This document shows positions 5,121-48,192 of a DNA stretch of 64,000 bases, in pieces (the stretch's first letter is position 1; the number at the start of each line of letters is the position of its first letter). The notes under the pieces were generated by a model. It was not told the origin of the DNA and searched no databases. It saw only the letters and a list, made by a program, of their open reading frames with translations. The position numbers and the translations under genes were made by a program. Source of the stretch: Nitrospira sp. MA-1 (GTDB lineage Bacteria > Nitrospirota > Nitrospiria > Nitrospirales > UBA8639). The stretch covers positions 1,488,001 to 1,552,000 of the forward strand of contig JAQJDB010000007.1 in assembly GCA_032139905.1 (NCBI GenBank), read 5' to 3'.

Positions 5121-5146
5121 TAGGGAATTCCTCAAGATTCGGATAT

Positions 5147-6349: not shown

Positions 6350-6359
6350 TATTTTTCAT

Positions 6360-19304: not shown

Positions 19305-20663
19305 CTACTCCTCTATCCCATATTCTTTGATTTTATATTGGAGCGATCTCACACTGATCCCGAGGAGTTTCGCAGCCTGTTCACGGTGATGGGTGACTTC
19401 CACGAGTGTTCGGCGGATGACTTCCCGTTCAATGTCCTCGAGAGGGGTTCCGAGGGAGATCACCATCCTGTTTGCGGGATTGACACTTGTTCGAATTTCA
19501 TCTGGAAGTTGATCGGGCTGAATGGAGTGCTCCTTCACCGTGACGACCAGACGTTCAATGACATTCCTGAGTTGACGAATATTACCAGGCCAGTGGTATT
19601 GAACGAGAAATCTTAGCGAAGCGGAAGCAAGATTTTTGAGTGGAATCCGGTGCTTCTGTGCAAATTCCTTGAGAAAATAGTCAAGAAGGACAGGGATATC
19701 TTCACGACGCTCTCGCAAGGGCGGCAGATGAATCGGCACCACATTTATACGATAGAAAAGATCTTCACGGAACTGTCCGGTTTCGACCAAATGAGCCAAA
19801 TCGCGGTTGGTGGCGGCAATAATCCGGGTATTGACGGTGATCAGGTTTTTTCCTCCAAGCCGCCGGAATTCACCGGTCTCTAAGACCCGTAGAAAATCTA
19901 CTTGGGCTTTTAAGGGGAGTTCCCCCAACTCATCCAGAAAGAGCGTTCCCTCATCGGCCAACTCAAATCGCCCCGGCTTGGTTCCAACCGCCCCGGAGAA
20001 TGCCCCTTTTTCGTATCCAAATAATTCACTTTCGAAAAGAGACTCGGGAAGGGCACCACAATTCATGGTGATAAAAGGTTCATGGGACCGCTGGCCTTGT
20101 TGATGAATGGCGCGTGCCACCAACTCTTTGCCTGTTCCACTTTCGCCGCCGATTAAAACTGTGACGTCGTTTTTGGCAACCATTCCAATAACATGGTGAA
20201 TGCGACGCATCGCTTCACTTTCGCCAATCATTTCCTCGATTCGTTTTCGTGTCTCGAGTTGGTGACGTAAATCCTGATTTTCGGCTGCAAGCCGGTGGCG
20301 GTCCAGGGCCTTTTGAACCACAATCGAAAACCGATCGCGGTCAATGGGTTTGGTGAGAAAATCATATGCCCCCAACCGCATGGCTTCCACAGCCGTCTCA
20401 ATAGAACCATAGGCCGTGATGACGATGATTTCGGTGGCTGGCCAAAGGGATTTTATTTGTGGGACGAGAGCGATTCCACCGATACCTGGCATTTTTACAT
20501 CCGTAATAAGAAGGTTGCTGGGCGACTCTTTCATCAGAGTCAGGGCGGATTCGGCGGAGTCTGCGCCCTGGGCGCAATAACCAGCCTTTTCCAATATCGT
20601 CACCAACGCATTACGAATATTAATTTCGTCATCGACAACCAGAATGCGAGTGTCTTGTTTCAC
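19305..20663 (-). CDS. Sigma-54-dependent NtrC-family response regulator
   Basis: A 452-residue regulator. Receiver domain (1-120) has phospho-acceptor Asp55 (ITDVKMPG) and Lys105 (FLTKP). The AAA+ domain has Walker A GESGTGKE (173-180), the sigma-54 contact loop GAFSGA (220-225, Ser in place of the usual Thr), Walker B GTLFLDE and REDLFYRINV. A Fis-type helix-turn-helix ends the protein (AAKLLGISVRSLQYKIKEYG). It activates sigma-54 promoters after phosphorylation by its partner kinase, whose gene overlaps it by 4 bp upstream. Targets are unknown; ZraR, AtoC and HydG are the nearest named relatives by layout. Confidence 0.92.
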   Translation of the reverse strand: MKQDTRILVVDDEINIRNALVTILEKAGYCAQGADSAESALTLMKESPSNLLITDVKMPGIGGIALVPQIKSLWPATEIIVITAYGSIETAVEAMRLGAYDFLTKPIDRDRFSIVVQKALDRHRLAAENQDLRHQLETRKRIEEMIGESEAMRRIHHVIGMVAKNDVTVLIGGESGTGKELVARAIHQQGQRSHEPFITMNCGALPESLFESELFGYEKGAFSGAVGTKPGRFELADEGTLFLDELGELPLKAQVDFLRVLETGEFRRLGGKNLITVNTRIIAATNRDLAHLVETGQFREDLFYRINVVPIHLPPLRERREDIPVLLDYFLKEFAQKHRIPLKNLASASLRFLVQYHWPGNIRQLRNVIERLVVTVKEHSIQPDQLPDEIRTSVNPANRMVISLGTPLEDIEREVIRRTLVEVTHHREQAAKLLGISVRSLQYKIKEYGIEE

Positions 20664-22087
20664 GCACCCTCCAGGAGGATGGTAGGGGCATTCATCACCA
20701 CTGGTAAGCTCAACGTGACCGACGTGCCATCACCGGGAAGAGCGGCCACGTCAATGCGACCGCCGTGATTTTGTAAAATTCGATGTGCGACCGCCAGGCC
20801 AAGGCCGGTCCCGGTTTCCTTTGTCGTGTAAAAAGGATCGAAGATATGGACAAGCGATTGAGGATCAATACCTTGTCCGGTATCGTGAACGGCGATCTCT
20901 ACCCAGTGACGCTCTTGTCGTTCACGTTCCTGGACGATAATTCGGCAGACCCCACCTGCCGACATGGCCTGGAACGCATTAATTACGATATTGATGAGCG
21001 CTTGTGCGATCTGCGTTTCGTCACCCTGGACATCCGGAAGGTTCGTGGGTACTGAAACCTGAAGCTGCTGATCCCTGTCCTGGGCCTCATGTTGTAATAA
21101 CTGTGTGACGTGCGACACGAGGGACTGAATGTTCACTTTCTGAAATTGAGCAGGCCGTGATTGTGCATATCGCATGATATTGTCCAAAATTGTCGACAGC
21201 CGGTTCAATTCGGTATTCAGTACTTGGAAATAGTCATTGGTGCGACTGGACAAGTCGGTTGTCTCTCGGAGTTCTTCTTCAAGTAAATGAAGATTGAGAT
21301 CCAAGGCGCTGAGAGGATTGCGGAGTTCATGGGCGACACCAGCTGACAACGTATGAAGCGCAGTCAATCTTTGGGCTTCGTTCACCTGTTTTTCGAGGGC
21401 TAGCCACTCTGTGACGTCGTGTAGTTGAAAAATCATTCCTGCCGGTTTGCCATTATCTTCCGTCAAATCAACATTGGTAATGCGGATCGTTCGTACCTCT
21501 CCATTTTTGGAATCGAAGGTAATCTCTTTCGAATGCATGGATCCGCCATGGTGGAGGATTTGGGAAAGGAGCACCTGAATGGGATGCCCTTCCCCAAACA
21601 CCACCTCATAATGTTTGCCCAATAGAGAAGCCGCAGGGCGCTCAAGAATGGTTTCAGCTGTTGGATTGGCTGCGGTAAGAACTCCATCCTCACTGACTGT
21701 TAACACACCGGTCGGGATACTTTCCAATATGTGCCGGGCGAGCCCCTTGACCTCTTCAAGGTTTTGTTTGGTGTTGGCGTAATGTAGATAAGTGACGACT
21801 GCGGAAATACCAACCCCACCGACGATGAAGAGCAGAAGTGTGATGGCGATTAAATCCCGGCGGGATTGTCCGACTGCGGCATTTAATTCCGAGGATACGG
21901 TTTTGCCTTCTGTGAGGCCAACCACCACCATACTTTGATGCTCAAGACTAAAAACCAATAACACGCCAATTACTACCCCCACAATGATAAGAATGGGCAT
22001 GATTTGGCGAATGAGGAGATTGTGAAAAAGTGGTGTTTCAGGGTGAGGGCGGAACATTCTTATTCTCTTTTTTTTTGATTCCTTCAA
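20660..22087 (-). CDS. PAS-containing sensor histidine kinase
   Basis: A 475-residue membrane kinase. Two membrane helices (about 28-46 and 79-100) enclose a very short periplasmic loop, so sensing is probably not by a large outer domain. A PAS domain (~115-225: LESIPTGVLTVSEDGVL, AANPTAETILERPAAS) precedes a HisKA domain with phospho-acceptor His253 (SAGVAHELRNPLSALDL). A HATPase domain follows with N box (ALINIVINAFQAM), G1 (VHDTGQGID) and G2 (TGLGLAVAHRI). The 4-bp overlap with the NtrC-type regulator downstream makes a cognate pair. The layout is like ZraS/NtrB-type kinases. Confidence 0.92.
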   Translation of the reverse strand: MKESKKKRIRMFRPHPETPLFHNLLIRQIMPILIIVGVVIGVLLVFSLEHQSMVVVGLTEGKTVSSELNAAVGQSRRDLIAITLLLFIVGGVGISAVVTYLHYANTKQNLEEVKGLARHILESIPTGVLTVSEDGVLTAANPTAETILERPAASLLGKHYEVVFGEGHPIQVLLSQILHHGGSMHSKEITFDSKNGEVRTIRITNVDLTEDNGKPAGMIFQLHDVTEWLALEKQVNEAQRLTALHTLSAGVAHELRNPLSALDLNLHLLEEELRETTDLSSRTNDYFQVLNTELNRLSTILDNIMRYAQSRPAQFQKVNIQSLVSHVTQLLQHEAQDRDQQLQVSVPTNLPDVQGDETQIAQALINIVINAFQAMSAGGVCRIIVQERERQERHWVEIAVHDTGQGIDPQSLVHIFDPFYTTKETGTGLGLAVAHRILQNHGGRIDVAALPGDGTSVTLSLPVVMNAPTILLEGA

Positions 22088-24524: not shown

Positions 24525-26555
24525 ATGACGACAATCCTGTTTTTGGCTCTGCTGTTGGCTTATGCGTGTGGGATGCTTCTCCCACTTTGTTTCCCAAGTC
24601 GACCGCATATTCAGAATGTGATTGCGCATGGATCAGCGTCCGTGGCCTGTGGCCTGGGGATAGCCCTTGGTCTGATTGGGCTTTTGGCCTCTGAGCCGCT
24701 GGTTTGGTTTTGGTCTTCTTCGATTCCTCTTCTGACGTTTTCTCTCCGGCTCGATTCCCTCAGTGCCTTTTTTGTCCTGACGATTTCCCTTGTGGGGTTG
24801 GCGGTGTCGGTATTTGCCAGTGGCTACGTCCGGGAATTTTACGGACGTATTCCTGTCAGTCTTCTCGGCTTTCTCTATAACGGGTTTCTTCTATCCATGT
24901 TGTTGGTTGTCACGGCGGATAATGCCTTCTTCTTTTTAATCGTCTGGGAATTGATGTCCCTCCTCTCATATTTTCTCGTAGTATCGGAGCATGAAAAACC
25001 GGACGTCCGTTTTGCTGGATTGTTTTATTTAATTATGACCCATGTGGGCACGGCATTTATTCTGGTGACGTTTCTCATGTTTTACCAGGAGACGGGTTCG
25101 TTTGCCTTTGAGGCATTTCGAAGCGCCGACCAAGCCCTGCCGGAAGGGTTGCGGACCCTGGCCTTTTGGACAGCCCTCATCGGTTTTGGAACCAAAGCGG
25201 GCATTGTGCCACTTCATGTCTGGTTACCCTATGCCCATCCCGCCGCACCATCTCATGTCTCCGCGTTGATGTCGGGTGTCATGATTAAAACGGCGATTTA
25301 TGGCCTCCTTCGGATGTATTTCGATTTTCTTGGCGGACCGTTTCCCTGGTGGTGGGGATTTGTGGTCTTGTTGGTGGGCACGGTTTCGGCCCTTCTTGGG
25401 GTGATGTATGCGTTGATGGAACATGATTTGAAGAGTCTTTTAGCCTTTCACAGCGTCGAAAACATCGGCATTATTTTAATGGGAATAGGAACAGGCATGG
25501 TGTTCTATGCCTATGACATGCCCCATCTGGCAGCATTGGGAATCATCGCCGGGCTGTACCACACGATCAATCACGCGGTGTTTAAGGCCTTGCTCTTTAT
25601 GGGCGCGGGTTCACTCCTGTATGCCACCCACACCCGGAACATGGAAGAATATGGGGGACTCCTTCGACGGATGCCCTGGACGGGCCTGTTTTTCTTAATT
25701 GGGGCCGTTTCCATTTCGGCCCTCCCGCCGACGAATGGATTTGTCAGTGAATGGCTGGTGTTTCAGGGGCTCTTTTTGAGCTTGGAACTCCCCTCTCTTT
25801 TTCTGAAATTGATGCTTCCCATCGCTGCGGCCTTGCTTGCGCTTACTGGCGCGTTGGCTCTTGCGTGCTTTGTTAAGGCCTTTGGGATTTCCTTCCTGGC
25901 CCTTCCGCGAAGTCCCCACGCACGAAAAGCTCAAGAGGTTCCTGTCCCTATGCGCGTCGGGATGGGAATTCTCGCCGGCCTTTGTCTGGTTTTAGGATTG
26001 GCTCCTGCAGTCGTGGTGCCCCTCCTGGATCGGGTGAGTGAACCCTTTGCGGGGATATCAATTGCCGGGAGGATGTTTGAAATGGGTGGTTGGACACTCG
26101 CACCGGTGAGTGGAGAGTTTTCAAGTCTCTCTACTCCAGTTCTGGCGATTATCCTGGTCGGTCTCACAGGATTGGGATGGGGGCTCGCCTATGTTCTGGG
26201 AGGGAAAGGGAAAACCCGGTTTTATAAAACATGGGGGTGTGGGTTGAATGTGACCGCACGAATGGAATACACCGCGACCGGTTTCGTGCAGCCCATTAAA
26301 CGGGTATTTAGCACCATTTATCAACCGACGGTCAAACTCGAAACAGAATTTCTTGAAGAATCGCATTATTTTGCCAAGCAGAGACATTTCGAATTTTCCA
26401 TCGAACCCATTTTCCTCAAGTATTTGTATCATCCAATCCTGAAATTCTTTTCAACCCTGGCTGATCGTTCCCGGGTGATCCAAGGAGGAAATTTGTCTTT
26501 GTACCTGGCTTATATTTTTGTGACGTTGGTGGTTTTACTGGTGGTAATGGGATAG
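24525..26555 (+). CDS. hyfB: Ehr/hydrogenase-4-like proton-pumping subunit HyfB
   Basis: A 676-residue membrane protein of the Mrp/NuoL antiporter-like family, HyfB branch. About fifteen helices are visible. Family residues include the acidic helix motif IVWELMSLLSYFLVVSEH, the lysine motif GFGTKAGIVPLHVWLPYAHP, the mid-membrane motif HDLKSLLAFHSVENIGI and the NHAVFKALLFMGAGSLL helix. It should translocate ions as part of a membrane-bound oxidoreductase. It is the first of seven genes spaced by 0-10 bp except before the last. The ATG at 24525 has a modest AAGG upstream. Confidence 0.92.
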   Translation: MTTILFLALLLAYACGMLLPLCFPSRPHIQNVIAHGSASVACGLGIALGLIGLLASEPLVWFWSSSIPLLTFSLRLDSLSAFFVLTISLVGLAVSVFASGYVREFYGRIPVSLLGFLYNGFLLSMLLVVTADNAFFFLIVWELMSLLSYFLVVSEHEKPDVRFAGLFYLIMTHVGTAFILVTFLMFYQETGSFAFEAFRSADQALPEGLRTLAFWTALIGFGTKAGIVPLHVWLPYAHPAAPSHVSALMSGVMIKTAIYGLLRMYFDFLGGPFPWWWGFVVLLVGTVSALLGVMYALMEHDLKSLLAFHSVENIGIILMGIGTGMVFYAYDMPHLAALGIIAGLYHTINHAVFKALLFMGAGSLLYATHTRNMEEYGGLLRRMPWTGLFFLIGAVSISALPPTNGFVSEWLVFQGLFLSLELPSLFLKLMLPIAAALLALTGALALACFVKAFGISFLALPRSPHARKAQEVPVPMRVGMGILAGLCLVLGLAPAVVVPLLDRVSEPFAGISIAGRMFEMGGWTLAPVSGEFSSLSTPVLAIILVGLTGLGWGLAYVLGGKGKTRFYKTWGCGLNVTARMEYTATGFVQPIKRVFSTIYQPTVKLETEFLEESHYFAKQRHFEFSIEPIFLKYLYHPILKFFSTLADRSRVIQGGNLSLYLAYIFVTLVVLLVVMG

Positions 26556-26564
26556 GGCGTATTC

Positions 26565-27518
26565 ATGAGCGCAATCGATTTCCTGCTGATTATTCTGCAA
26601 ATGTTTCTGGTTTTAGGGCTTTCTCCCTTAATCGTGGGGGTCATTCGACGAGTGAAAGCCCACATGCAATGTCGACATGGGGCGAACGTGTTCCAGCCCT
26701 ATTCGGATCTTGCCAAACTTTTTCACAAGGAACCGGTGATCTCTACAACAGCCTCGTGGATTTTCCCAGCTACGCCATACATCCTGTTTTCCTCAACCTT
26801 GGCTGCCAGTCTGCTTGTGCCCACCATTATTGCGCCCATGCCGCTCAATTTTGCGGGAAATATTATTGCCTTGGTCTATCTTCTGGCCCTAGGGACCTTT
26901 TTTCTGATGCTGGCGGGCCTGGATTCCGGATCCGCCTTTGGTGGAATGGGCAGCAGTCGCGAAGCGATTGTCGCCTCACTAACCGAACCGGCCTTGATTC
27001 TGTCCTTGTTTGCCGTGGCCCTCACGGCGGGCTCGGCCAATATCAGCGCCATCGTGTACAAGACGGCGATCTTGCAGGGTATTGTGCTGGATCCTCCGCC
27101 TCACTTAATGGCCTTGGTGGCTCTGTTTATCATTACGCTGGCCGAAACTGGCCGAGTGCCCGTGGATAATCCGGCCACGCATTTGGAATTGACCATGATT
27201 CATGAAGCGATGATTTTGGAATACTCCGGGCGATATCTGGCCCTGGTTGAGTGGGCAGCCGGAATGAAACTCATGATTTTTTTGACCTTGCTGGTCAACA
27301 TTTTTGCGCCGTGGGGCATTGCCACCACCTTGTCCCCGTCAGCTCTAGGCTTAGGGGTGCTGGTCTTTGTGGGGAAGGTTGTGGGGTTGGCCGTTGTGAT
27401 TGGTGTGTTTGAATGTATGTTTGCCAAATTGCGGTTGTTTCGCGTGACGGAATTACTTGGGGCAGCCTTTATTCTGTCATTATTAGCCCTGGTGTTTTTT
27501 TATATCCTGCGGGTGTGA
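26565..27518 (+). CDS. hyfC: Ehr/hydrogenase-4-like membrane anchor HyfC (NuoH-like)
   Basis: A 317-residue NuoH/HycD-type membrane subunit with about eight helices. The group-4-hydrogenase signature ETGRVPVDNPATHLELTMIHEAM lies at about residues 195-217 (quoted in part: NPATHLELTM). LFHKEPVI is present in the first cytoplasmic loop. In this family HyfC links the soluble electron-transfer arm to the ion-pumping subunits and carries the quinone-like cavity region. It starts 9 bp after hyfB and is followed by hyfE one base after its stop codon. Confidence 0.92.
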   Translation: MSAIDFLLIILQMFLVLGLSPLIVGVIRRVKAHMQCRHGANVFQPYSDLAKLFHKEPVISTTASWIFPATPYILFSSTLAASLLVPTIIAPMPLNFAGNIIALVYLLALGTFFLMLAGLDSGSAFGGMGSSREAIVASLTEPALILSLFAVALTAGSANISAIVYKTAILQGIVLDPPPHLMALVALFIITLAETGRVPVDNPATHLELTMIHEAMILEYSGRYLALVEWAAGMKLMIFLTLLVNIFAPWGIATTLSPSALGLGVLVFVGKVVGLAVVIGVFECMFAKLRLFRVTELLGAAFILSLLALVFFYILRV

Positions 27519-27519
27519 C

Positions 27520-28188
27520 ATGCCAACTCTCCCGGTCAATATTGGTTCGTACCTGGTCAATCTGTGCTCGGCCCTCCTGTTGCTGACGTGTTTTGCCATC
27601 GTCGCACAACGGCGCCTGATGGCGTGCGTGGACTTGTTCGCGTTGCAGTCGGGGTTTTTGGCAGTGACCGCCACGCTGGTGGCGTATTTGACCGGCATCC
27701 ACCATATTTACCTGGCGGCAATACTCACTATCGCCATTAAAGCCATTATCCTGCCACGGATTTTAAAGAAGATCGTGAGGCAATTAAATGTTCAGCGCGA
27801 GGTCAGCATGTATGTCAACATTCCAACGGGTTTGTTGATCTGCGGGGGATTGGTGATTCTCGCATTTTTTATTACTCAACCGATTGTTCATCTCGGTTTC
27901 CTTCTGACTCAAGATTCTTTGGCGATTGCCCTGGCCATCGTGCTGATCGGATTTTTTATCATGGTGTCCAGGCAAAAAGCCGTCACCCAAGTGATCGGGT
28001 TTCTCGTGATGGAAAACGGGCTGTTTCTCGCAGCCACCGCTGCCGCCTATGGGATGCCGTTAATGGTGGAGTTGGGAATCTTTTTCGATGTGCTGGTCGC
28101 CGGCTTGATCGTGGGTATTTATACCCATCAGATTCAGGAGACCTTCGGCAGTGTGGATACCAGCCGAATGAAGGCTCTCAAAGAGTAA
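27520..28188 (+). CDS. hyfE: Ehr/hydrogenase-4-like subunit HyfE (NuoK-like)
   Basis: A 222-residue membrane protein, HyfE type. The N-terminal half resembles MnhC/NuoK (three helices, SALLLLTCFAIVAQRRLMACVDLFALQ). The C-terminal half adds more helices, including QVIGFLVMENGLFLAATAAAYG, whose glutamate is typical of NuoK-like subunits. It probably completes the ion path between HyfC and the antiporter-like subunits. Spacing to its neighbours is 1 and 5 bp, indicating translational coupling. Confidence 0.9.
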   Translation: MPTLPVNIGSYLVNLCSALLLLTCFAIVAQRRLMACVDLFALQSGFLAVTATLVAYLTGIHHIYLAAILTIAIKAIILPRILKKIVRQLNVQREVSMYVNIPTGLLICGGLVILAFFITQPIVHLGFLLTQDSLAIALAIVLIGFFIMVSRQKAVTQVIGFLVMENGLFLAATAAAYGMPLMVELGIFFDVLVAGLIVGIYTHQIQETFGSVDTSRMKALKE

Positions 28189-28193
28189 GTCTC

Positions 28194-29678
28194 ATGATTT
28201 GGCCGATAATTCTTCTCATTGCGACCCCGTTCTTGATTGGCGTCAGTGGGCTTGTCGTCCGTCATCGGCAGACGTTGGACGTCCTGCATTGCGTGCAAGC
28301 CGGCATCATGGTGGTTTCGTCAATCTTATTGGTCGATGAGGTGTCCCTGAGCGGACCTGTTTCTTTTTTATACTTCCTGCATGTTGATGCCATCAGCGCC
28401 TGGTTTGATTTGGTGATCGGGATCGTGGCAGGGACGGGAACCTTATATGCCGTAGGGTATGTGGGGGAGCAGTATGACCGTGGGCACATGTCGCTCAAAC
28501 GGTTTCGTCAATTTTTTATGTTTTTCGATCTGTATTTGGGGGTCATGCTGTTGGCCGTCAATGTTGAAAATCTTGGGATGATGTGGATTGCCATTGAAGG
28601 AGCGACCTTGTCGGCCGCCTTGCTGATCGGATTTGAGCGGAACAAGGGAGGCCTTGAGGCGGGATGGAAATTTGTGATTCTCAGTTCAGTCGGTATTGCG
28701 TTGGCCCTTTTTGGGACAATCCTCGTGTATTACTCCTCGGAGCAACTCCTTGGGATTACCGAAGAAGCGCTACACTGGGCAACACTGTATGAGGTTGGGG
28801 ACCAACTCGATCCTTCCGTGATGAAAATTGCCTTTATTTTCATTTTGGTTGGGTACGGGACCAAGGCGGGTCTGGTCCCTATGCATACCTGGTTACCCGA
28901 TGCGCATGGAGAAGCCCCCACTCCCGTTAGTGCAATGCTTTCCGCAAATATGTTGACCATGGCGATCTATGCGATTCTCCGGTTCAAGATCCTGACCGAT
29001 CAGGCGGTGGGGCTGGATTTCACAGGAACCTTGCTCCTGGGATTTGGATTTTTCTCCGTCGCGCTCTCCTCGATTGTCCTGTTGCTTCAAGAAGATTTCA
29101 AACGACTGCTAGCCTATTCCAGTATCGAGCATATCGGTATCGCATTAATTGGTTTTGGTCTGGGGGGCTTGGGAGTATTTGGAGGATTGTGGCATCTGCT
29201 GAATCATGCCTTGGCAAAATCCGCCGCGTTTTATGGCGCTGGCCTTGTCCTGATTACGCATGAACATAAGTTTATCGCTCGTGTCCCTGGCCTGCTACGT
29301 GAGCATCCAGTTGCGGGAGTGGCCTTATTCGTCGCAGGGCTTGTTCTTGCCGGCATGCCCCCCTTCGGATTGTTTGTGAGTGAAATCACGATCGCTGCGA
29401 ACGCCATGAACACAACCCCATCGATCGCATATGGGTTCCTCGCTGTATTGACTCTGGCTTTTGCGACGCTGTTGTTTCAAATTTTGAGAATGGTCCTCGG
29501 TGTGCCCATGGAAACGGCCACCTCCACCGTGGGGCCACGGTGCCGGGCCTTTTCGACCGCCGCGATTGCAGTGAATCTGGGTGCCCTGATTTTTTTAGGG
29601 CTCCATGTCCCTGCCGGCCTTCATGATCTTATCGGGGCGATTCTGCCATTTTTTCATGCGGAAGGAGAGTATTTCTAA
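28194..29678 (+). CDS. hyfF: Ehr/hydrogenase-4-like antiporter-type subunit HyfF, first copy
   Basis: A 494-residue NuoL/NuoN-type protein of HyfF class. Conserved features are the acidic helix MMWIAIEGATLSAALLIGFE, the lysine motif GYGTKAGLVPMHTWLPDAHG, the mid-membrane DFKRLLAYSSIEHIGIA and the NHALAKSAAFYGAG helix. Key Glu and Lys residues are kept, so it should be a working pump module. It is clearly paralogous to the next gene, the stop codon of which pair abuts the start of the second copy (TAA then ATG). Confidence 0.92.
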   Translation: MIWPIILLIATPFLIGVSGLVVRHRQTLDVLHCVQAGIMVVSSILLVDEVSLSGPVSFLYFLHVDAISAWFDLVIGIVAGTGTLYAVGYVGEQYDRGHMSLKRFRQFFMFFDLYLGVMLLAVNVENLGMMWIAIEGATLSAALLIGFERNKGGLEAGWKFVILSSVGIALALFGTILVYYSSEQLLGITEEALHWATLYEVGDQLDPSVMKIAFIFILVGYGTKAGLVPMHTWLPDAHGEAPTPVSAMLSANMLTMAIYAILRFKILTDQAVGLDFTGTLLLGFGFFSVALSSIVLLLQEDFKRLLAYSSIEHIGIALIGFGLGGLGVFGGLWHLLNHALAKSAAFYGAGLVLITHEHKFIARVPGLLREHPVAGVALFVAGLVLAGMPPFGLFVSEITIAANAMNTTPSIAYGFLAVLTLAFATLLFQILRMVLGVPMETATSTVGPRCRAFSTAAIAVNLGALIFLGLHVPAGLHDLIGAILPFFHAEGEYF

Positions 29679-31223
29679 ATGCCGGACGAGAACGATGTGA
29701 CGCTGATGGTCCTGGCTGCGCCGGTTGTCGCCGCAACACTCAGTCTATTCATCAAAAATATTCGTCTGCTTCACGGCTTGAACGTGATGACTATGGTCAT
29801 CCTGGTGGTAGCCGCTCTGGTTCTTTGGGCAACCGTAGTTCGTGATGAATCCTTCACGGCACTCGGAAATGTGGTGTTTATTGACAGCCTCTCGATTTTC
29901 ATTCTCTCAATCGTGGTGGGTATTGGTTTTTCCTGTTCGATTTATCTGTGGTCGTATTTTGATGATGAGGCTATTCAACAGTTAGTTCAACCTCATCGTC
30001 TCTGGACTTTTTTCCCTCTGTATCACGTATTTTTGTTTGCCATGATCGTCGCGACCCTGGCGAACAGTCTGGGTGTGCAATGGGTTGCCGTAGAGGCGAC
30101 GACCCTGGCAACGGTCTTCCTCATTACATTTTTTAAAAGCCGGGAAAGCTTGGAGGCCGGATGGAAATATCTCATCCTTTGCTCGGTCGGTATTGCCCTC
30201 GCTTTGTTCGGAACGGTCCTGACCTATTATTCGTCAATTCGTGTGCTTGGGGAAGAAAACGCCGCATTGAATCTGACCAGCCTGTTGCCCGTGGCTGCTC
30301 AGATGGATGGACACGTCCTTAAGTTGGCTTTCATCTTTATTCTGGTCGGGTACGGCACGAAGATTGGTCTTGTCCCGATGCATACCTGGTTGCCTGAGGC
30401 CTATAGTGAAGCGCCGGCCCCGGTCACAGCTATGCTGGCCGGAGTCCTGGAAACCGTTGCGGTGTATGTCCTCCTGCGGAGTAAATCCATCGTGGATCAG
30501 GCCGTCTCACCGGGATTTACAGGGAACCTCCTGATCTTAATCGGATTGGTCTCGTTTGGGACGGCAGCGCTGTTTATCCTGATTCAACGCGATTACAAAC
30601 GGCTTTTTGCGTACTCCAGTATCGAGCATATGGGATTGGCCATGTTGGGGTTTGGTATTGGGGGACCACTAGGAACCTTCGGTGGGCTATGGCATCTCCT
30701 CAACCATGCCTTGGCTAAATCGCTGGGATTTTTTGCCGTCGGCAACATTTTTCGCCGTTATCGAACCAGACAGATTCATGAGGTCCAGGGTATGGCCAAA
30801 GTCCAACCCATTACCGCAATCGTCTTTCTAGCCGGTGGCTTGGCTTTGGTGGGCATGCCCCCGTTTTCACTATTTAACAGTGAGCTGTTAGTGATCACTT
30901 CACTGGCGCAAATGACCTTTCAATTTGATTCGTTTCATCTGGGGCGATTTCTAACCATCACCGTCTCACATGAAATTCGGAGCCTGGGAATCATCATGAT
31001 CATTGTTCTGTTCGCGGTGGCTTTATTCGGAGGATTTATCTACCGGCTGACCGGCATGGTATGGGGCACCCCACCTGCAGGGGTCAGGCAAGGGGAGGCC
31101 TGGCACATCGGGCAACTCCCACTTGCCTTATCGGTCTTCGCCTTGGTGTGGATGGGATTTTCTCTTCCCACCCAGGTTGAAGCTCTCTTACAACGGGCCA
31201 CCGACGTGGTGATAGGAAGATAA
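29679..31223 (+). CDS. Ehr/hydrogenase-4-like antiporter-type subunit HyfF, second copy
   Basis: A 514-residue paralogue of the preceding protein. Matching landmarks are QWVAVEATTLATVFLITFF, GYGTKIGLVPMHTWLPEAYS, DYKRLFAYSSIEHMGLAMLG and NHALAKSLGFFAVG. Pump Glu and Lys residues are present in both copies. E. coli hydrogenase-4 has one HyfF and a separate HyfD; here a second HyfF-type gene occupies the HyfD slot, giving three antiporter-like subunits with HyfB. Duplication followed by divergence is the simplest explanation. Confidence 0.9.
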   Translation: MPDENDVTLMVLAAPVVAATLSLFIKNIRLLHGLNVMTMVILVVAALVLWATVVRDESFTALGNVVFIDSLSIFILSIVVGIGFSCSIYLWSYFDDEAIQQLVQPHRLWTFFPLYHVFLFAMIVATLANSLGVQWVAVEATTLATVFLITFFKSRESLEAGWKYLILCSVGIALALFGTVLTYYSSIRVLGEENAALNLTSLLPVAAQMDGHVLKLAFIFILVGYGTKIGLVPMHTWLPEAYSEAPAPVTAMLAGVLETVAVYVLLRSKSIVDQAVSPGFTGNLLILIGLVSFGTAALFILIQRDYKRLFAYSSIEHMGLAMLGFGIGGPLGTFGGLWHLLNHALAKSLGFFAVGNIFRRYRTRQIHEVQGMAKVQPITAIVFLAGGLALVGMPPFSLFNSELLVITSLAQMTFQFDSFHLGRFLTITVSHEIRSLGIIMIIVLFAVALFGGFIYRLTGMVWGTPPAGVRQGEAWHIGQLPLALSVFALVWMGFSLPTQVEALLQRATDVVIGR

Positions 31224-31229
31224 CCAAAC

Positions 31230-32828
31230 ATGGAAACGGTATTTCAACCAGTTGAACATTTACAAAGCATATTCGGTCCGGCGATTAACCGTGTCTCCAC
31301 CGACCACGGTGTTCCTGTGGTCCATGTGAACACCAATCAAATTTTGCCGATTACCCGATATATTCATATCAATGAGGAATTCAGAGGAACTCTTTCCTTG
31401 CTATGGGCTGTCGATCACCGTCCTCGTGAGGTGCGCTACGAACTCTGGTACTTATTTACGCTCGGTGATTCCAAGGACTGGCTTATTGTCTCCACGGATC
31501 TTCTGGGGGACGAACGGCTCTTTGAGTCCATCACACCCAAAATTCATGCGGCCAACTGGTATGAGCGGGAAATCCGGGATATGTTCGGCCTCATCGCACA
31601 AGGGCATCCGGATCTTCGGCGTCTGGTCCGGCACAATCACTGGCCCAAAGGGGTTCACCCCTTACACAAAAATTTCCCATGCAATTCGGTCTTGCAATGG
31701 CGCCAACCTCCCGGATCGGTTGATGGTCATTTTATTCACGGGGAAGGCGTGTTCGAAGTGCCGGTGGGCCCCATTCATGCGGGAATCATTGAACCCGGAC
31801 ACTTCCGGTTTACTGTGGCAGGAGAACCGATTATGCACCTCGATCTCCAACATTTTTGGAAACATCGTGGTGTGGAAAAGCTGTTCGAACAACAGACGCT
31901 GTCCGATGGCGTGGTATTGGCCGAGCGAATTTCAGGGGACACGACCTTTGGGCATAGCCTGACCTATTGCCAGGCTGTGGAATCGTTAATGGACATTCAT
32001 GTGCCTCGACGGGCCAGATATCTCAGGAGTTTGTTCCTGGAATTGGAGCGGCTCCACAACCACATTGGTGATGTGGGAGGTCTTTGCAATGACACGGCCT
32101 ATGCGCTGGCCCATGCCCACTGCAGTCGATTGAAAGAACGGGTGATGCAATTGAACGACCATCTGACGGGCTCCAGGTTCCTTCGAGGGGTGAACTGCGT
32201 GGGAGGAGTGGGGATCGATCCCCCGGCGGTTCAATTATCCGACACCGTGACTGAACTTGAACGTATTGAAAAAGATTTTTCCGAACTGGAACAGATTATC
32301 GCCGTCAATGCTTCGCTGATCGATCGGTTTGAGAACACGGGTATTGTTAAGAAACAGACCGCCTGGGACCATGGGGTAGTGGGTGTGGTTGGCCGGGCGT
32401 CGGGGATTGACCGGGATCTTCGAAGAGATCGGCCTTTTGCAGCCTATGATGAGCTGTCCGTCCGTGTGGCGGGTTCTATAAATGGGGATGTACGGTCCAG
32501 GGTACAGGTTCGGATGGCAGAGATCCACGAATCGATTCGATTGATTGGAGAGATTCAGCGTACCCTCCCTGATGGCCCCCTGAAGGGTCGTCGCCAGGTG
32601 GTTCCTGTTCCCGGAGCCTGGGCGCTTTCTGCTGTTGAAGGATGGCGTGGTGAAATTGTGTGTTTCCTCATGGCGGGGGAACACGAAGGGATTCATCGTT
32701 GTAAGGTCCGTGATCCTTCCTTTGTCAATTGGCCGGCGATTCAATTGGCAGTGATTGGGAATATTATTCCAGACTTTCCTCTCATTAATAAAAGCTTCAG
32801 TCTGTCTTATGCGGGGAATGATTTGTAA
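31230..32828 (+). CDS. hyfG: HyfG/NuoCD-like large subunit without nickel-iron ligands
   Basis: A 532-residue fusion of a NuoC-like 30-kDa domain (~1-170, ANWYEREIRDMFGL, LRRLVRHNHWPKG) and a NuoD/hydrogenase large-subunit domain (~175-532, HLDLQHFWKHRGVEKLFE). The first cysteine motif of nickel-iron enzymes (ER-C-G-x-C) reads ERISGDTTFGHS at about residues 231-242, so both cysteines are lost. The C-terminal DPCxxC motif is also absent: the protein ends NKSFSLSYAGNDL. It therefore cannot hold a nickel-iron site and matches the energy-converting-hydrogenase-related (Ehr) class, whose substrate is unknown. Calling it a hydrogenase would be wrong. Confidence 0.9.
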   Translation: METVFQPVEHLQSIFGPAINRVSTDHGVPVVHVNTNQILPITRYIHINEEFRGTLSLLWAVDHRPREVRYELWYLFTLGDSKDWLIVSTDLLGDERLFESITPKIHAANWYEREIRDMFGLIAQGHPDLRRLVRHNHWPKGVHPLHKNFPCNSVLQWRQPPGSVDGHFIHGEGVFEVPVGPIHAGIIEPGHFRFTVAGEPIMHLDLQHFWKHRGVEKLFEQQTLSDGVVLAERISGDTTFGHSLTYCQAVESLMDIHVPRRARYLRSLFLELERLHNHIGDVGGLCNDTAYALAHAHCSRLKERVMQLNDHLTGSRFLRGVNCVGGVGIDPPAVQLSDTVTELERIEKDFSELEQIIAVNASLIDRFENTGIVKKQTAWDHGVVGVVGRASGIDRDLRRDRPFAAYDELSVRVAGSINGDVRSRVQVRMAEIHESIRLIGEIQRTLPDGPLKGRRQVVPVPGAWALSAVEGWRGEIVCFLMAGEHEGIHRCKVRDPSFVNWPAIQLAVIGNIIPDFPLINKSFSLSYAGNDL

Positions 32829-32975
32829 TACATTGCAAGAGGTGCAGTGTGGAGGGTAGGGGAATGGGTGGGAAGCAGGGAAACCAACCACCGTGATGAC
32901 ATGGAAGAACGACGGGGGAGCCCTATTTTCCACTGGACGGCTTAGGGATTTGACCCGCAAAAATGAGGAGAGACC

Positions 32976-33527
32976 ATGTTTGAAATTCTCAAAAAAAGTT
33001 TCAAAACAGGAATAGTGACCGACCAATATCCTCCTGCTCCTGCCGGACAGAAAATCTCTGTTGCGCCAACAGCTCAAAAGAAGGCTGAACTGTTTCGAAA
33101 GTCGCTCACCATTCGTGAAGTGGATACCGGTTCGTGTAATGCCTGTGAGATGGAAATGAATGCCTTAGCCAATCCTGTCTATGATATCGAACGCCTTGGA
33201 ATTCATATTGCCGCGTCTCCTCGTCACGCGGATGCCTTGGTGGTGACTGGTCCGGTTACGGTGAACATGGAAGGTCCGCTGAAGGATGTGTACAAAACCA
33301 CGCCCAATCCAAAATTAGTCATCGCCTTAGGTGATTGTGCAATCAATTGTGGAATCTTCAAAGGAAGCTATGCAGTGACTGGTCCGGTGGATCAACATAT
33401 TCCGGTTGATGTTCGCATCCCCGGATGTCCTCCCCGCCCGGCCGAAATTATTGAGGCTCTGACGGAGCTTCGGAAAGGCGAAACGACCTTTACCAGGTGG
33501 TTTAGAAAATTCTCGGGAGAACCATGA
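32976..33527 (+). CDS. hyfI: HyfI/NuoB-like iron-sulfur small subunit
   Basis: A 183-residue small subunit. All four ligands of the N2-type 4Fe-4S cluster are visible: the GSCNACE pair, GDCAINCG and PGCPPRP. This is the last cluster before the quinone or active-site cavity formed with the large subunit. The N-terminal ~35 residues are an extension. A 147-bp gap separates it from the large-subunit gene, and no ferredoxin-type HyfH gene is in the gap or anywhere nearby, so the electron-input module must differ. A GAGGAGAG ribosome-binding site precedes the ATG. Confidence 0.9.
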   Translation: MFEILKKSFKTGIVTDQYPPAPAGQKISVAPTAQKKAELFRKSLTIREVDTGSCNACEMEMNALANPVYDIERLGIHIAASPRHADALVVTGPVTVNMEGPLKDVYKTTPNPKLVIALGDCAINCGIFKGSYAVTGPVDQHIPVDVRIPGCPPRPAEIIEALTELRKGETTFTRWFRKFSGEP

Positions 33528-33655: not shown

Positions 33656-34561
33656 ATGCGCGTATTATTACCCGTACTTGCCATATTTTTGATTCTCGGT
33701 GTCGGTCCGTCCTGGGCCTATCAAGAGATCCACGTCTCCAATGGAGGTGCGATTTCCGGAACCGTGACCATTGAAGGAGGGAAACCGCGGCCGATGGCTT
33801 TTAATTTGGTCACGATTCCTGATCCAGTGTATTGCGGGAGAATTTCGACGGGAACCGGTTGGCGTCTGGTGGAGGATTTCGTCATTGGGCCTGACGCGGC
33901 TCTTAAAGATGTCGTCGTTGTGCTAAAGGAGGTTTCAAAAGGCAAACCCTTTAAGGATGTTTCAACAAGGATTGAGGCCATTGACTGTGATTTTTTCCCG
34001 TTTGTGAATGTGGTGCGGGATCAATCGGAAATTACGGTTGTCAATATGGATCCCATCGAACATGATATCCAGGGGTATGAAACGGCTCGCACCCGCGGTG
34101 CGCGGGTCCTCTTTAACAGGCCGTTACCGATGAATCCCTTTCATAAAGCCGCAGGGTTCCTGGGGCATCAACATCTGGCCGGGGAGCCCATGGTGGAATC
34201 AATTCATCTCAGAAAAGGCCGCAATGTCTTTGTCATGCAATGCGGGTTTCATCCTTATATGTTCTCCTGGGGTTTGGTCGTGGATAACCCGTACTATGGC
34301 ATCACGGGAGGGGATGGGAAATTTGCAATTGGTGATATCCCCTCTGGAGAATACACCCTTTCCGCCTGGCACCCTGGTGCCAATACCTTCATTGATCAAT
34401 CTGTTACGGTATTAGCCAATCAGTCGGTCTCAGTTCAGTTAGTATTCGAGGCTCCCCAGGGGAGAAGAAGTGTCCATGAAATGGCCGAGAATCCACGATT
34501 CGGGTTGGAACTCCTCGGAGAAGAAGAAATTCATCCCTCGCTTCGTGTGCAAATACCATAA
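33656..34561 (+). CDS. Periplasmic cupredoxin with carboxypeptidase-regulatory-like domain
   Basis: A 301-residue exported protein; signal peptide residues 1-21 (ending SWAYQ). Residues ~100-210 form a cupredoxin: His136 (EHDIQG) and the amicyanin-type loop Cys196-Gly-Phe-His199-Pro-Tyr-Met202, a full type 1 copper ligand set. Residues ~213-265 (ITGGDGKFAIGDIPSGEYTL) are a carboxypeptidase-regulatory-like beta domain. An N-terminal beta segment (GAISGTVTIEGG) is similar. It probably carries electrons in the periplasm. It follows the Ehr small subunit by 128 bp on the same strand; a functional tie is inference. The gene may have its own promoter. Confidence 0.85.
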   Translation: MRVLLPVLAIFLILGVGPSWAYQEIHVSNGGAISGTVTIEGGKPRPMAFNLVTIPDPVYCGRISTGTGWRLVEDFVIGPDAALKDVVVVLKEVSKGKPFKDVSTRIEAIDCDFFPFVNVVRDQSEITVVNMDPIEHDIQGYETARTRGARVLFNRPLPMNPFHKAAGFLGHQHLAGEPMVESIHLRKGRNVFVMQCGFHPYMFSWGLVVDNPYYGITGGDGKFAIGDIPSGEYTLSAWHPGANTFIDQSVTVLANQSVSVQLVFEAPQGRRSVHEMAENPRFGLELLGEEEIHPSLRVQIP

Positions 34562-41335: not shown

Positions 41336-41935
41336 TTACCCGCTGGTGTCGGGTGTTAAGGGAATGGTGGCCTGAACATGAGAGCCGGTTTCCCACACCT
41401 GGGTGGACAGGACCACGGTTTCTGGTTCGATCCTGTGCACCTGCACACGACCGTCCAAGATCTCTCCCTGTTTGACGATATAAATGGCCTGCCCATTGGT
41501 GAGGAAGGCCTGGCTTTCCCCCCCCTTGGTTAAATACCCCAGGAACCGGAATTGGTTGAGTTGTTCCCTGGCTCGCTGTCCTGCAAGATCGGCAAAAGAA
41601 GGACCTGGGGGCGGCGGTTGGGGTGGAGGTGGCGTCGGGGAGGGTGCCGCCTTGGCGAGGCGAGAGGTGGTGGCTTTGTTTGTGTCTTGTCGGGCGATCT
41701 GGGCCATGCCCAGAGGTGCAAAAATATTTCGAGGGAGAGAGAACGTGACAGTTTGTCGAGGATTAGGAAAATCCGGGTCTAACTTCAAATCTTTAAGTGG
41801 TGGAAGTGGGTTTTCGGACGTGGCAGAGTGAAGCATGGGATCTGTTGGCTCCGAATCCCACAATTGGAAGATTGTCACCATTCCCCAAGCCAATAGTAAG
41901 CCCCCCAACATTAGCCATTTTCGTTGATTTGTCAT
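41336..41935 (-). CDS. PilP/GspC-like periplasmic linker protein
   Basis: A 199-residue inner-membrane protein: one N-terminal helix (WLMLGGLLLAWGMVTIFQL), a linker with RNIFAPLG, a proline-rich stretch (about residues 95-112) and a C-terminal beta domain (FRFLGYLTKGGESQAFLTNG, YIVKQGEILDGRVQVHRI) of the PilP/GspC homology-region type. These proteins connect the inner-membrane PilMNO platform to the secretin. Its start overlaps the PilO stop (TAATG). Confidence 0.78.
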   Translation of the reverse strand: MTNQRKWLMLGGLLLAWGMVTIFQLWDSEPTDPMLHSATSENPLPPLKDLKLDPDFPNPRQTVTFSLPRNIFAPLGMAQIARQDTNKATTSRLAKAAPSPTPPPPQPPPPGPSFADLAGQRAREQLNQFRFLGYLTKGGESQAFLTNGQAIYIVKQGEILDGRVQVHRIEPETVVLSTQVWETGSHVQATIPLTPDTSG

Positions 41936-42507
41936 TAGGCTTTCGTCTTTTTGACCGGTTCAGGGAATTCTTTCAGAAAGGTAGAGACCTTTAGCTTAAA
42001 GATGACCCCTTTCTGTTTTTTAGATGTTTCAACGGACAGTTTTTCAATAAAGAGGTAGGGCCAGCGTTGCTCTAGTTCGAAAATGAATTTACGAATAGCC
42101 TCATAGGGTCCTACGGCTTCAAACGCAAACGTGCCTTTTGTGGCCAGTTTATGGGGGAGGGGTTTGAAGTCGTATCCCATACCTGGAATTTGTACGCGAT
42201 TTCGTTTTGCTAAATCGGCAATGTCTAAACTTAAATCTGTGAATTCTCCGGAATCCGGAAGCGCGTTCCATATGGTGGATAGAATGGTTTGGGTCTGCCT
42301 GGCCGTCTGCATGGTTTTTTGTGTGTGCAGGGAAGCTTGATTCAGGGCCGTGATATGTTCAAAACGGTCCTGGGCCGGGTAAAAGATGAAGGCAAACATC
42401 CCGACCGATGACAGTCCTGCAAGGATTGTCACGATGAACAACGGACTTAAAAATTTTGTGATCCGGATCGTCGTCTTTGATCGTTGTATGATCTGAAAGG
42501 AATTCAT
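41935..42507 (-). CDS. pilO: PilO-like inner-membrane platform protein
   Basis: A 190-residue bitopic protein: short cytoplasmic end, one helix (LFIVTILAGLSSVGMFAFIFY), a coiled-coil (~55-90), then a ferredoxin-like periplasmic domain (GTFAFEAVGPYEAIRKFIFELE). This matches PilO/GspM, which pairs with PilN. It overlaps pilN by 4 bp (ATGA) and the PilP-like gene by 1 bp. Confidence 0.82.
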   Translation of the reverse strand: MNSFQIIQRSKTTIRITKFLSPLFIVTILAGLSSVGMFAFIFYPAQDRFEHITALNQASLHTQKTMQTARQTQTILSTIWNALPDSGEFTDLSLDIADLAKRNRVQIPGMGYDFKPLPHKLATKGTFAFEAVGPYEAIRKFIFELEQRWPYLFIEKLSVETSKKQKGVIFKLKVSTFLKEFPEPVKKTKA

Positions 42508-43118
42508 CGTTGCCTGGGAACCCCTGTCAAGTGAGAGGTCGAGCGTCGAGGATCATACGTGACTGTGAGCGTAAACACGCTATGGGAGCCACCTTGATCC
42601 TCTTTGGTGTTTTTTGTGGAATGCTGCGATAGCAAGACATTCTGAAAGGCTGCGTGCTTGTCTAGCTGATGAATGAGCCGGTTGAGGTCTGGAAGGGAAG
42701 CTGCCGATCCTTGAAGAAGAATCGTGTCGGTTTTTTCATCGAGAGACACCGAGTTCACGGTGATATCCGAGGGAACGGCTGTTTCCAGATCGGTCAGTAA
42801 TTGTGTCCAGGAAAATCCAACCCGTTCTCGAACCTGTTTCACAAAATTGACTTTTGATGGAATGCTTCGAATGGCCTGATGCGAAAGATCAAGCCCCGCC
42901 ACCCTGGCTTGAGAGACCAATTGATTGTTGGTGGTCTCGATACTGGATGCTTGGTCTTCTAGAATATCAATCTGTTCATGTAATGACTTTCCCTGCCACC
43001 AGAATGAAGCGGTAAGAGCGAGTGTCCCGGCTGTGAGGAGGGTGAGCCCGAGTTGGGACAATTGAAGAAAATGAATGCCGGGTGCAGACAAATTCCTATG
43101 TACACGTGGAATCATCAT
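42504..43118 (-). CDS. pilN: PilN-like inner-membrane platform protein
   Basis: A 204-residue bitopic protein of PilN/GspL-C type: a cytoplasmic N-terminus (VHRNLSAPGIHFLQLSQLG), one helix, a coiled-coil, then a ferredoxin-like domain (VNSVSLDEKTDTILLQGSAA). The N-terminal peptide of PilN docks into PilM, whose gene is directly upstream. It overlaps both neighbours by 4 bp. Confidence 0.82.
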   Translation of the reverse strand: MMIPRVHRNLSAPGIHFLQLSQLGLTLLTAGTLALTASFWWQGKSLHEQIDILEDQASSIETTNNQLVSQARVAGLDLSHQAIRSIPSKVNFVKQVRERVGFSWTQLLTDLETAVPSDITVNSVSLDEKTDTILLQGSAASLPDLNRLIHQLDKHAAFQNVLLSQHSTKNTKEDQGGSHSVFTLTVTYDPRRSTSHLTGVPRQR

Positions 43119-44293
43119 GCCACCATCAGACTGGCATAGCCTGGCAATGCCGCTTCTTCCCGGTTGCTTGCCGCCAGGTGTCTGTTTAATAAATGAAAAT
43201 GTGAGGCATGAGAAAGCGAGGTGACTCGAATTTGAGGCTCATGTCCTCCACTGGCCTTCAGGGACTGTTGAATGTGGTCGAGAGGCGGCATAAGGCTCTG
43301 TCCATAGGGCAGGTCGGTTGTCATGAACAGATTAACCGGAGAAGATGCCGTGGCAGAGATGGGAAACATCTCGAAATAATATTGCAGTGTTGCCAGGATT
43401 TCCTTTTCTACCTTCATGGCAATGTACGAATAATAGGGATTATTCCCTGTGTCGGATTCTTGGGGTGCGTTAGAAATCAGATCTTCTGACGTTGTTGTGC
43501 AATGTTCTCTGGTTTCCCTGTCCTCCTCAGCCTCAGGATTCACGGAAGAATCTTGAGAGTGATTTGCTTCCGTTTTGATGCCAAGAGCTTTCGTGCGGAC
43601 GAAGCGTGGACTGCCTTCCTGACAAGCTAAAAAAGTAAAACCCCAATGACTTATGAAGAGAAACATGACGACTGGGGGCGCGGAGGCCTGAGAGGGGTTT
43701 TCAGCCGTGAGCATGTCCTGGATGTTGTGGCGGTACAGATCAAAGATATCGAGCCCCGACATTCCCACAGAAGTTGGGATCAGGCCGGCTTCTAAGCACA
43801 TGTTCTCATATTGTTCAATAATTTCATGGCGAATGGCCGTGCCTAACACTCTGACCTGGCCTCTGTTGCCTGGGGAGGAATCCCTGACCGATGAGGGCAC
43901 GTAGAGGCCAAAAGCCAGGCGCGATTGGGAGGTATCGAGTTTGAGGTCCTGTTGAAAACGCCAATTCACCAGTGCCGTTTGCTCCGGTTTTTTGGTGGGG
44001 AAGGATGCAAAATCAAAAATGCTAGTCCGGGCGCATATGTCGGGGAGACTGAGTGCAATGGAGAGCGGGCGACGATAGGGCTTGACCAGTGCCTTAAGTT
44101 GAGTGAGAAATTCATTTGGATTGGCAATGTTGGGTTTTGCCGAAGAGAGGGTGAGGACTTCCGGCGAGAGCGGGAGTCTGGCGATATGCCGGAGCGACTT
44201 TTTTCGCCAAGATTTTTTGATTTCCACCAGGCATAGCCCATCCTCAGAAATGGAGAGTGCCACGGTGGGTGCCGAAATGGGAAAAAAATGCAT
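43115..44293 (-). CDS. pilM: PilM-like actin-fold protein (GspL cytoplasmic type)
   Basis: A 392-residue cytoplasmic protein with the actin-like fold of PilM/GspL: opening VALSISEDGLCLVEIKKS, IALSLPDICARTSIFDF, LIPTSVGMSGLDIFDLY. A low-complexity acidic insert (~250-290) is present. PilM binds nucleotide and PilN. It is more diverged than classical PilM, like MshI or GspL. Start and stop overlap both neighbouring genes, placing it inside the operon after the ATPase gene. Confidence 0.78.
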   Translation of the reverse strand: MHFFPISAPTVALSISEDGLCLVEIKKSWRKKSLRHIARLPLSPEVLTLSSAKPNIANPNEFLTQLKALVKPYRRPLSIALSLPDICARTSIFDFASFPTKKPEQTALVNWRFQQDLKLDTSQSRLAFGLYVPSSVRDSSPGNRGQVRVLGTAIRHEIIEQYENMCLEAGLIPTSVGMSGLDIFDLYRHNIQDMLTAENPSQASAPPVVMFLFISHWGFTFLACQEGSPRFVRTKALGIKTEANHSQDSSVNPEAEEDRETREHCTTTSEDLISNAPQESDTGNNPYYSYIAMKVEKEILATLQYYFEMFPISATASSPVNLFMTTDLPYGQSLMPPLDHIQQSLKASGGHEPQIRVTSLSHASHFHLLNRHLAASNREEAALPGYASLMVA

Positions 44294-46020: not shown

Positions 46021-46050
46021 GGGTATTCTTTTGTTAAGGCCACTTGGTCC

Positions 46051-48185: not shown

Positions 48186-48192
48186 ATGCTAC

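Follow-up and report, generated by a model that had tools for sequence, protein, structure and literature searches.

What can a membrane complex of the hydrogenase-4 type do once its nickel-iron ([NiFe]) site is gone? This question is raised by a locus within a stretch of 64,000 nucleotides (the window) from Nitrospira sp. MA-1, a member of the Nitrospirales with a genome of 4.76 Mb, where seven intact open reading frames (ORFs) in the order HyfB-C-E-F1-F2-G-I occupy positions 24525-33527 of contig C7 as counted within the window, all on the + strand. The locus encodes a real and intact energy-converting-hydrogenase-related (Ehr) complex, the two-HyfF form of a known complex type. When it is compared with its relatives, the operon takes its place in a series in which the redox chain is lost step by step, and this loss across the family is of greater interest than either the HyfF pair of the window or the absence of HyfH.

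Ehr as such is already known in the Nitrospirales and is not new. A hyf-like operon, hyfBCEFGI, was described from Nitrospira in 2017 (PMC5596200), an Ehr without CxxC motifs and close to group 4f has been reported from hot-spring comammox Nitrospira (PMC10284858), and Ehr has been found in about half of Nitrospirales genomes, with no response to H2 in N. moscoviensis (PMC12342949). The Ehr of the candidate phyla radiation (CPR) likewise lacks the metal cysteines (PMC7304191). In the present survey, Ehr-type matches (E <= 1e-60; some true hydrogenases included) were obtained in 172 of 296 Nitrospirota genomes and in many other phyla.

The operon and its large subunit

The subunits of the operon were assigned to the expected families by Pfam and NCBIfam, far beyond chance, and all seven ORFs are complete, so that the seven Hyf-type genes proposed in a first-pass annotation of the window agree in position, strand and family. 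HyfB (24525..26555), an antiporter-like subunit of 676 amino acids, matches PF00361 (2.6e-54) and the NCBIfam hydrogenase 4 subunit B model (755 bits, above the cut-off). It is followed by HyfC (26565..27518; 317 amino acids), a NuoH/HycD-like membrane anchor (PF00146, 9.1e-47) whose best solved relative is HycD of formate hydrogenlyase (7z0s_D), and by HyfE (27520..28188; 222 amino acids), which matches the NCBIfam hydrogenase 4 membrane subunit (1.7e-28). A second and a third antiporter-like subunit, HyfF1 (28194..29678) and HyfF2 (29679..31223), were recognized by family match. HyfG (31230..32828; 532 amino acids) is a large subunit with fused NuoC and NuoD parts, identified by family match, alignment and fold, and the operon ends with the small subunit HyfI (32976..33527; 183 amino acids), which is made up of a HyfH-like anchor (about residues 1-25) and a NuoB-like domain with four cluster cysteines. 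Genes of the HyfB, C, E, F, G and I types are the set that defines Ehr operons; no HyfA, HyfD or HyfH, no NADH module (NuoEFG) and no carbonic-anhydrase-like subunit are encoded in the operon.

In the alignment of HyfG with HycE, the large subunit of Escherichia coli formate hydrogenlyase, RISGDTTF stands in place of RVCGICGF and SLSYAG in place of DPCYSC. All four [NiFe] cysteines are absent, and with them both CxxC motifs for nickel and iron, which bears out the earlier observation of SGDT at the first CxxC site and of a missing C-terminal DPCxxC. Judged by the known ligands, HyfG cannot be a [NiFe] hydrogenase subunit. Its ORF stops at SLSYAGNDL, the residue at which mature HycE of E. coli ends (an end that we take to be defined by the HycI cleavage site), and HyfG is therefore without a maturation tail. 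The motifs of the cavity are SGDT at residues 235-238 and PDFPLINKSFSLSYAGNDL at 514-532. Most non-hydrogenase members have SGD at the first site; it is read in 60 of 80 fetched loci, and 12 of the 20 loci without it hold metal-binding sequences. The C-terminus PDFPLxNKSFxxSYxGxDL-stop is common to most non-hydrogenase members among the loci read from Nitrospirota, Pseudomonadota, Actinomycetota and elsewhere, and H183, E188, N520, K521 and S526 each show conservation of 97% or more in the Ehr alignment set. Because the replacement motifs are conserved across phyla, the loss of the metal ligands is not to be equated with decay. The positions of the quinone His (GPxHPSTHG) and Tyr (DRxDY) of complex I are Ile and Gly in Ehr HyfG. 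As both the quinone and the [NiFe] positions are replaced while other cavity residues are conserved, the site would serve neither H2 chemistry nor the role of a standard quinone site; by these residues the cavity is a remade one, with a conserved role.

The best solved relative of HyfG is HycE (7z0s_E, E 6e-78), which is also the top Protein Data Bank match (TM-score 0.88) of an AlphaFold2 model with a mean predicted local distance difference test score of 86. A tree was made from the NuoD domains of 92 sequences after exclusion of the motif columns; the set does not include the Geobacter type member GSU0739-45. Here the HyfG of the window groups with Nitrospira HyfG inside a group (support 100) of Ehr and group-4f-like hydrogenases, together with organisms reported to carry Ehr (N. 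moscoviensis, CPR and Saganbacteria); complex I (support 100) and Hyf/Hyc are separate. The first-pass annotation had proposed an Ehr-type complex and had asked for this phylogeny, with clustering among ordinary complex I sequences as the result that would speak against it; HyfG lies outside complex I, groups with Ehr and 4f-like sequences, and has no [NiFe] ligands. Twelve sequences in which both cysteine motifs, the first and the second, are intact adjoin the Ehr sequences within the group, and the label "4f" for these hydrogenase-like neighbours is taken from PMC10284858. A single Ehr clade is not rejected (p 0.97), so that a single loss of the metal site suffices. To judge from these alignments and trees, the complex of the window is an Ehr with a group-4f-type [NiFe] hydrogenase as its ancestor. 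The second HyfG copy of Variovorax sits on a very long branch and its placement is unsure.

The small subunit and the antiporter-like arm

The small subunit was earlier said to keep all of its cluster cysteines, and C54, C57, C121 and C151 are indeed read in HyfI. The accompanying statement that no HyfH is present holds for the cluster domain, which is absent from the operon: the locus has no electron-input clusters of the HyfH/ferredoxin kind, and when the genome is searched with E. coli HyfH, the two NuoI genes, which belong to complex I, are the only matches. However, HyfI keeps a HyfH-like N-terminal segment. Its residues 1-25, MFEILKKSFKTGIVTDQYPPAP, resemble the N-terminus of HycF/HyfH, MFTFIKKVIKTGTATSSYPLEP, with a score of 57 against 20.6 +/- 4.1 for shuffled sequences, none of 500 scoring as high. 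Across 70 Ehr HyfI the median z of this likeness is 6.1, with p <= 0.01 in 73%, whereas the controls, HyfI and HycG of E. coli, give z values of 1.0 and 0.2.

The N-terminus is explained by the HyfH-HyfI fusion of 4f-like hydrogenases, in which the two-cluster ferredoxin domain of HyfH is mostly fused between the anchor and the NuoB-like part. A fused 2x[4Fe-4S] domain is present in HyfI despite an SGD motif at four loci (L172, L196, L219 and L186) and in the Variovorax copy, and a degenerate fused ferredoxin domain is found in the HyfI of L073 and L218. The best reading is that the HyfI of the window is a former HyfH-HyfI fusion whose cluster domain would have gone after the loss of the metal site. 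Nor is the lack of a HyfH gene unusual, as had been suggested; it is the norm for the Ehr family, in which the ferredoxin domain was joined to HyfI and then dropped in most lineages, and among the SGD-type operons read in other phyla, SGD and a separate HyfH gene occur together in one archaeal metagenome-assembled genome (MAG) only (L167).

The antiporter-like arm of the complex is well preserved. HyfB keeps the Glu of transmembrane helix (TM) 5, the Lys of TM7 and of TM8 and the Glu of TM12, and HyfF1 and HyfF2 both have Glu in TM5 and in TM12 and Lys in TM7, so that pump residues are retained in three antiporter-type subunits, as first read. The antiporter-type Glu and Lys positions are invariant in the relatives compared. 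In HyfC, the positions of NuoH E157, E220 and E228 are Glu, and the position of E218 holds His, a residue shared by all of the 4f/Ehr relatives read. The conserved Glu and Lys residues place HyfB and HyfF in the Mrp/complex I superfamily, and ion transport is predicted.

HyfF1 and HyfF2 form sister groups in the tree (support 100 each, joined at 96), each of which spans several family-level groups of the class; the duplication, an old one in Nitrospirota, predates the order and is ancestral to the class-level lineage of this genome. What had been singled out as a duplicate HyfF is therefore a pair of genuine, separate paralogues, but one that is not peculiar to this genome. HyfF2 is orthologous to the one HyfF that N. 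moscoviensis has; HyfF1 was lost there and in most f3 relatives, and two f2 genomes hold HyfF1 alone. The pair also occurs in 14 genomes besides the window (loci read; two fetched twice). A further candidate pair, at L081, was rejected as a split gene. In the closely related genome G017 (L028:11034-14601), HyfF1 is fused to the last 171 residues of HyfF2, a tandem pair collapsed by deletion.

Loss of the redox chain and possible mechanisms

All four cluster cysteines are present in 110 of 122 HyfI rows. At 11 loci, two to four of the four readable cysteines are replaced, often by Asp (patterns TCDD, DCDD, SEGD, TEGN and DTDN; L171 is partial), and of the other 111 rows all but one have all four. 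Nine of these loci, mostly from candidate-phyla bacteria, lie in one tree group (L169, the partial L171, L173, L176, L180, L181, L203, L205 and L215); the others are L170 and a Methanosarcina MAG (L214). Their hosts are Daviesbacteria, Levybacteria, Magasanikbacteria, Staskawiczbacteria, Moranbacteria, further MAGs, a Thermoleophilia MAG and the Methanosarcina MAG; mis-binning could touch single cases, not the overall pattern. The HyfG motifs (SGD and NKS..LSYS) are intact at these loci, L170 ending in SYSAFDR, and the antiporter Glu and Lys positions are invariant in all 11. A single clade for the loss of the Fe-S ligands is not rejected (p 0.81), hence there may have been one loss or two, and two separate origins were not accepted as established. 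ATP synthase genes lie upstream in the same direction, 0.1-0.6 kb from the Ehr operon, at L171, L173, L203 and L205, and at L169 atpC is found on the opposite strand, at a distance of 0.9 kb. An F-type ATP synthase thus adjoins Ehr at five ligand-free loci and at no other surveyed Ehr locus (Fisher p 2e-7, for an approximate denominator and related loci that are not independent). No prior report of a ligand-free HyfI or of the link to ATP synthase was found in the open-access literature. At L203, a supposed carbonic anhydrase gene next to Ehr was discarded: it only mimics the CxDGR motif, is not supported by Pfam and is not similar to the gene at L033.

The family as a whole thus runs from hydrogenases with a fused ferredoxin domain, through metal-free forms that keep this domain and metal-free forms with one cluster, to forms without cluster ligands. 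This series breaks the question of donor and acceptor into more direct ones, chiefly whether the cysteines of HyfI are needed.

For the window, the reading favoured here, tentatively and at a little short of an even chance, is that of an ion-translocating complex in which a mobile donor of low potential, for instance ferredoxin, would pass electrons through the HyfI cluster to a HyfG acceptor, with coupled ion movement. Subunits, descent, ligand loss, anchor remnant, pump residues and duplication age are read from the sequence; the donor, acceptor, direction and ion are inferred. With its four metal ligands swapped for a conserved polar set, the HyfG cavity would no longer turn over H2. The ferredoxin unit of HyfH would first have been joined to HyfI; it would later have shed its two-cluster part, so that only the anchor and one cluster, that of HyfI, were left. 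Electrons could be swapped with the HyfI cluster by a soluble carrier of low potential that docks at the place of the former HyfH clusters. This carrier would be ferredoxin, exchanged in turn with 2-oxoacid:ferredoxin oxidoreductases, and the HyfG cavity would pass the electrons on to an acceptor. HyfB, HyfF1, HyfF2, HyfC and HyfE would form the ion-translocating arm, with one antiporter-like module more than in N. moscoviensis, and ion movement through the three antiporter-like units would be coupled to the electron step of HyfG in either direction.

Candidate partners are suggested by ferredoxin-oxidoreductase-type neighbours in relatives. In genomes of f3, f5, f6 and f9, a pair of PF02552 proteins is encoded just upstream of Ehr, between it and the two-component and copper-type genes described below, and in f3 genomes the pair is accompanied by a gamma/alpha-like protein of pyruvate:ferredoxin oxidoreductase (POR). 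This neighbour has been described as carbon monoxide dehydrogenase (CODH; "CODH next to hyf", PMC5596200), but it need not be CODH, since in the window genome the PF02552 proteins are members of two 2-oxoacid:ferredoxin oxidoreductase clusters (of POR/OGOR type, OGOR being 2-oxoglutarate:ferredoxin oxidoreductase); this identification was therefore not adopted. Such neighbours would tie the Ehr of relatives to ferredoxin-dependent carbon enzymes. Several points weigh against a ferredoxin-linked complex. No ferredoxin or oxidoreductase genes lie beside the window's own Ehr, the POR-like set of the relatives has no visible beta subunit, and the genomes in the PF02552 count were partly picked for showing that neighbour, which biases the count. 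No acceptor site is recognizable in HyfG, where the [NiFe] cysteines and the quinone His and Tyr of complex I are both absent, and because some relatives without HyfI cluster ligands keep everything else, electron transfer is not needed in every Ehr.

These relatives make a redox-free ion machine the main rival, with, for instance, Na+/H+ exchange or an ion flow coupled to a small molecule that is bound or converted in the HyfG cavity, no net electron transfer, and a HyfI cluster that is structural or regulatory where it is kept. This is unlikely, though a serious contender: the 11 HyfI without cluster ligands that stand beside preserved HyfG motifs and antiporter residues argue for it, as do the five loci that adjoin F-type ATP synthase genes, four of them co-directional. 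SulP transporter and LCIB-type carbonic-anhydrase-like genes adjoin Ehr in close relatives (L027-L029), and SulP does so in another genus (L033, L035 and L107); these neighbours have too few origins for much weight, and carbon-uptake genes are absent from the window and most loci. The four cysteines in all other HyfI bar one (110 rows) and the ferredoxin domains still present in some Ehr speak for electron transfer instead. A more far-reaching version, rather unlikely, is that Ehr complexes in general, although derived from hydrogenases, work as ion machines without any need of electrons: the HyfG cavity would bind or convert a small molecule or ion, with the antiporter-like units driven by the cavity or driving it, and some lineages would have discarded the whole redox chain, the last Fe-S cluster included. 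If electrons are indeed not needed, the coupling of antiporter modules of the complex I type would become open to study without redox chemistry.

A quinone-linked oxidoreductase like complex I, carrying electrons from a low-potential donor to quinone or in reverse with ion pumping, would fit the architecture and fold in common with complex I and the E-channel type glutamates that HyfC mostly retains, and a role of this kind, together with formate dehydrogenase, has been put forward for Ehr (PMC6349859). The replaced quinone positions and the place of HyfG outside complex I make it improbable. Docking of a formate dehydrogenase on Ehr, in the manner of formate hydrogenlyase, was proposed for Nitrospira hyf-like operons (PMC5596200) and for Saganbacteria (PMC6349859), and Ehr proteins of Geobacter sulfurreducens are more abundant on formate (PMC7894505). 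For the window this is very improbable, as nothing in its genome exceeds the family cut-off for a formate dehydrogenase alpha subunit, 5 of 60 relatives have one (four of these with Ehr), and there is no linker of the HyfA or HyfH type. That the operon is a decaying, functionless relic of a hydrogenase, as its patchy occurrence within the genus and lost metal site might imply, is hardly credible in view of intact ORFs throughout, replacement motifs conserved across phyla, invariant pump residues and two HyfF paralogues retained from a time before the families diverged. Overall, the initial interpretation is partly supported: Ehr type, loss of [NiFe], separation from complex I and two HyfF are upheld, and the absence of HyfH as an unusual trait is not.

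Gene neighbourhood and known systems

On the - strand ahead of the operon lie genes for a sigma-54 response regulator of the NtrC/AtoC type (19305..20663) and its partner histidine kinase (20660..22087), both conserved beside Ehr. Downstream on the + strand (33656..34561) is the gene of a protein that is predicted to be exported and whose sequence, as read, shows an H...CxxHxxxM pattern of type-1-copper-like appearance; no confident family was obtained for it by Pfam, NCBIfam or further search. The two-component pair and the copper-type protein recur next to Nitrospirota Ehr, the latter in many loci. A sigma-54 promoter 5′ of hyfB was considered and rejected, the pattern being no more frequent than by chance and, in a comparison of four loci, none being conserved in front of HyfB. 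A general link between Ehr and autotrophy was also rejected, since actinomycetes, rhizobia and candidate-phyla bacteria have Ehr too.

Elsewhere in the window, on the - strand and by eye, positions 1710-6902 encode a DnaE-type polymerase (1052 amino acids), a protein resembling Y-family polymerases (400) and, with them, a repressor of LexA-like appearance (180), a group that recalls an imuB/dnaE2 SOS mutagenesis cassette. A 385-amino-acid ORF (12313-13470) has the look of a phage tail sheath without obvious phage genes nearby, and 41336-51507 holds a type II secretion or pilus-type cluster with GspE-, GspF-, secretin- and pilin-like ORFs. Among the other loci, plasmid Ehr operons of Paraburkholderia and Variovorax (L069 and L072) have genes for spermidine synthase and universal stress proteins at their flanks. 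Two different Ehr operons stand in tandem on Variovorax plasmid 3, and two complete ones, of HyfG subgroups SGT and SGD, at L087 (G104) and L088 (G064). Frames that resemble formate dehydrogenase genes (G043:C4, G051:C120 and G040:C61; family f2) each contain one in-frame TGA and probably encode selenocysteine enzymes.

Among known systems, the Ehr of N. moscoviensis and other Nitrospirales (PMC12342949, PMC10284858, PMC5596200) is closest in its subunits, HyfG motifs and orthologous HyfG (L163), and in lacking [NiFe] ligands and a HyfH gene; N. moscoviensis has one HyfF, and hyfBCEFGI is the composition that has been published, whereas the window holds HyfF1 and HyfF2. Group-4f-like hydrogenases (for example L184 of Thermincola, L193 and L204) share GPIHAGIIEPGHFRF, the PDFPLINKSF frame and the subunit set with the window, but keep RICGxC and ELCYxC and mostly a two-cluster ferredoxin domain, neither of which the window has. 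Formate hydrogenlyase-1/2 (Hyc/Hyf, group 4a, 7z0s) has the same fold, subunit families and order HyfB-C-E-F-G-I; the window differs in having no metal ligands, HyfA, HyfD, HyfH or maturation tail, and in its separate tree group. A true Hyf-type hydrogenase with CxxC motifs, HyfH and a HyfD-like gene was seen in distant Nitrospirota with 2 Mb genomes (L089:9457-18580, G118).

The DAB and NDH-1MS inorganic-carbon complexes employ antiporter-like subunits outside the classical respiratory chain. Their likeness to Ehr is one of context, through the SulP and carbonic-anhydrase-like neighbours of some loci, and the operon of the window differs in having no carbonic anhydrase subunit. Complex I itself is encoded on contig C1 of the same genome, in an operon with several antiporter-like subunits; the Ehr locus has neither its quinone His and Tyr, nor its NuoD clustering, nor NuoEFG. 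The 2M complex I of Nitrospira differs in its large subunit, which has quinone residues, and in its descent, but like the window's Ehr it has an extra antiporter-like subunit, and both could therefore move more ions per cycle.

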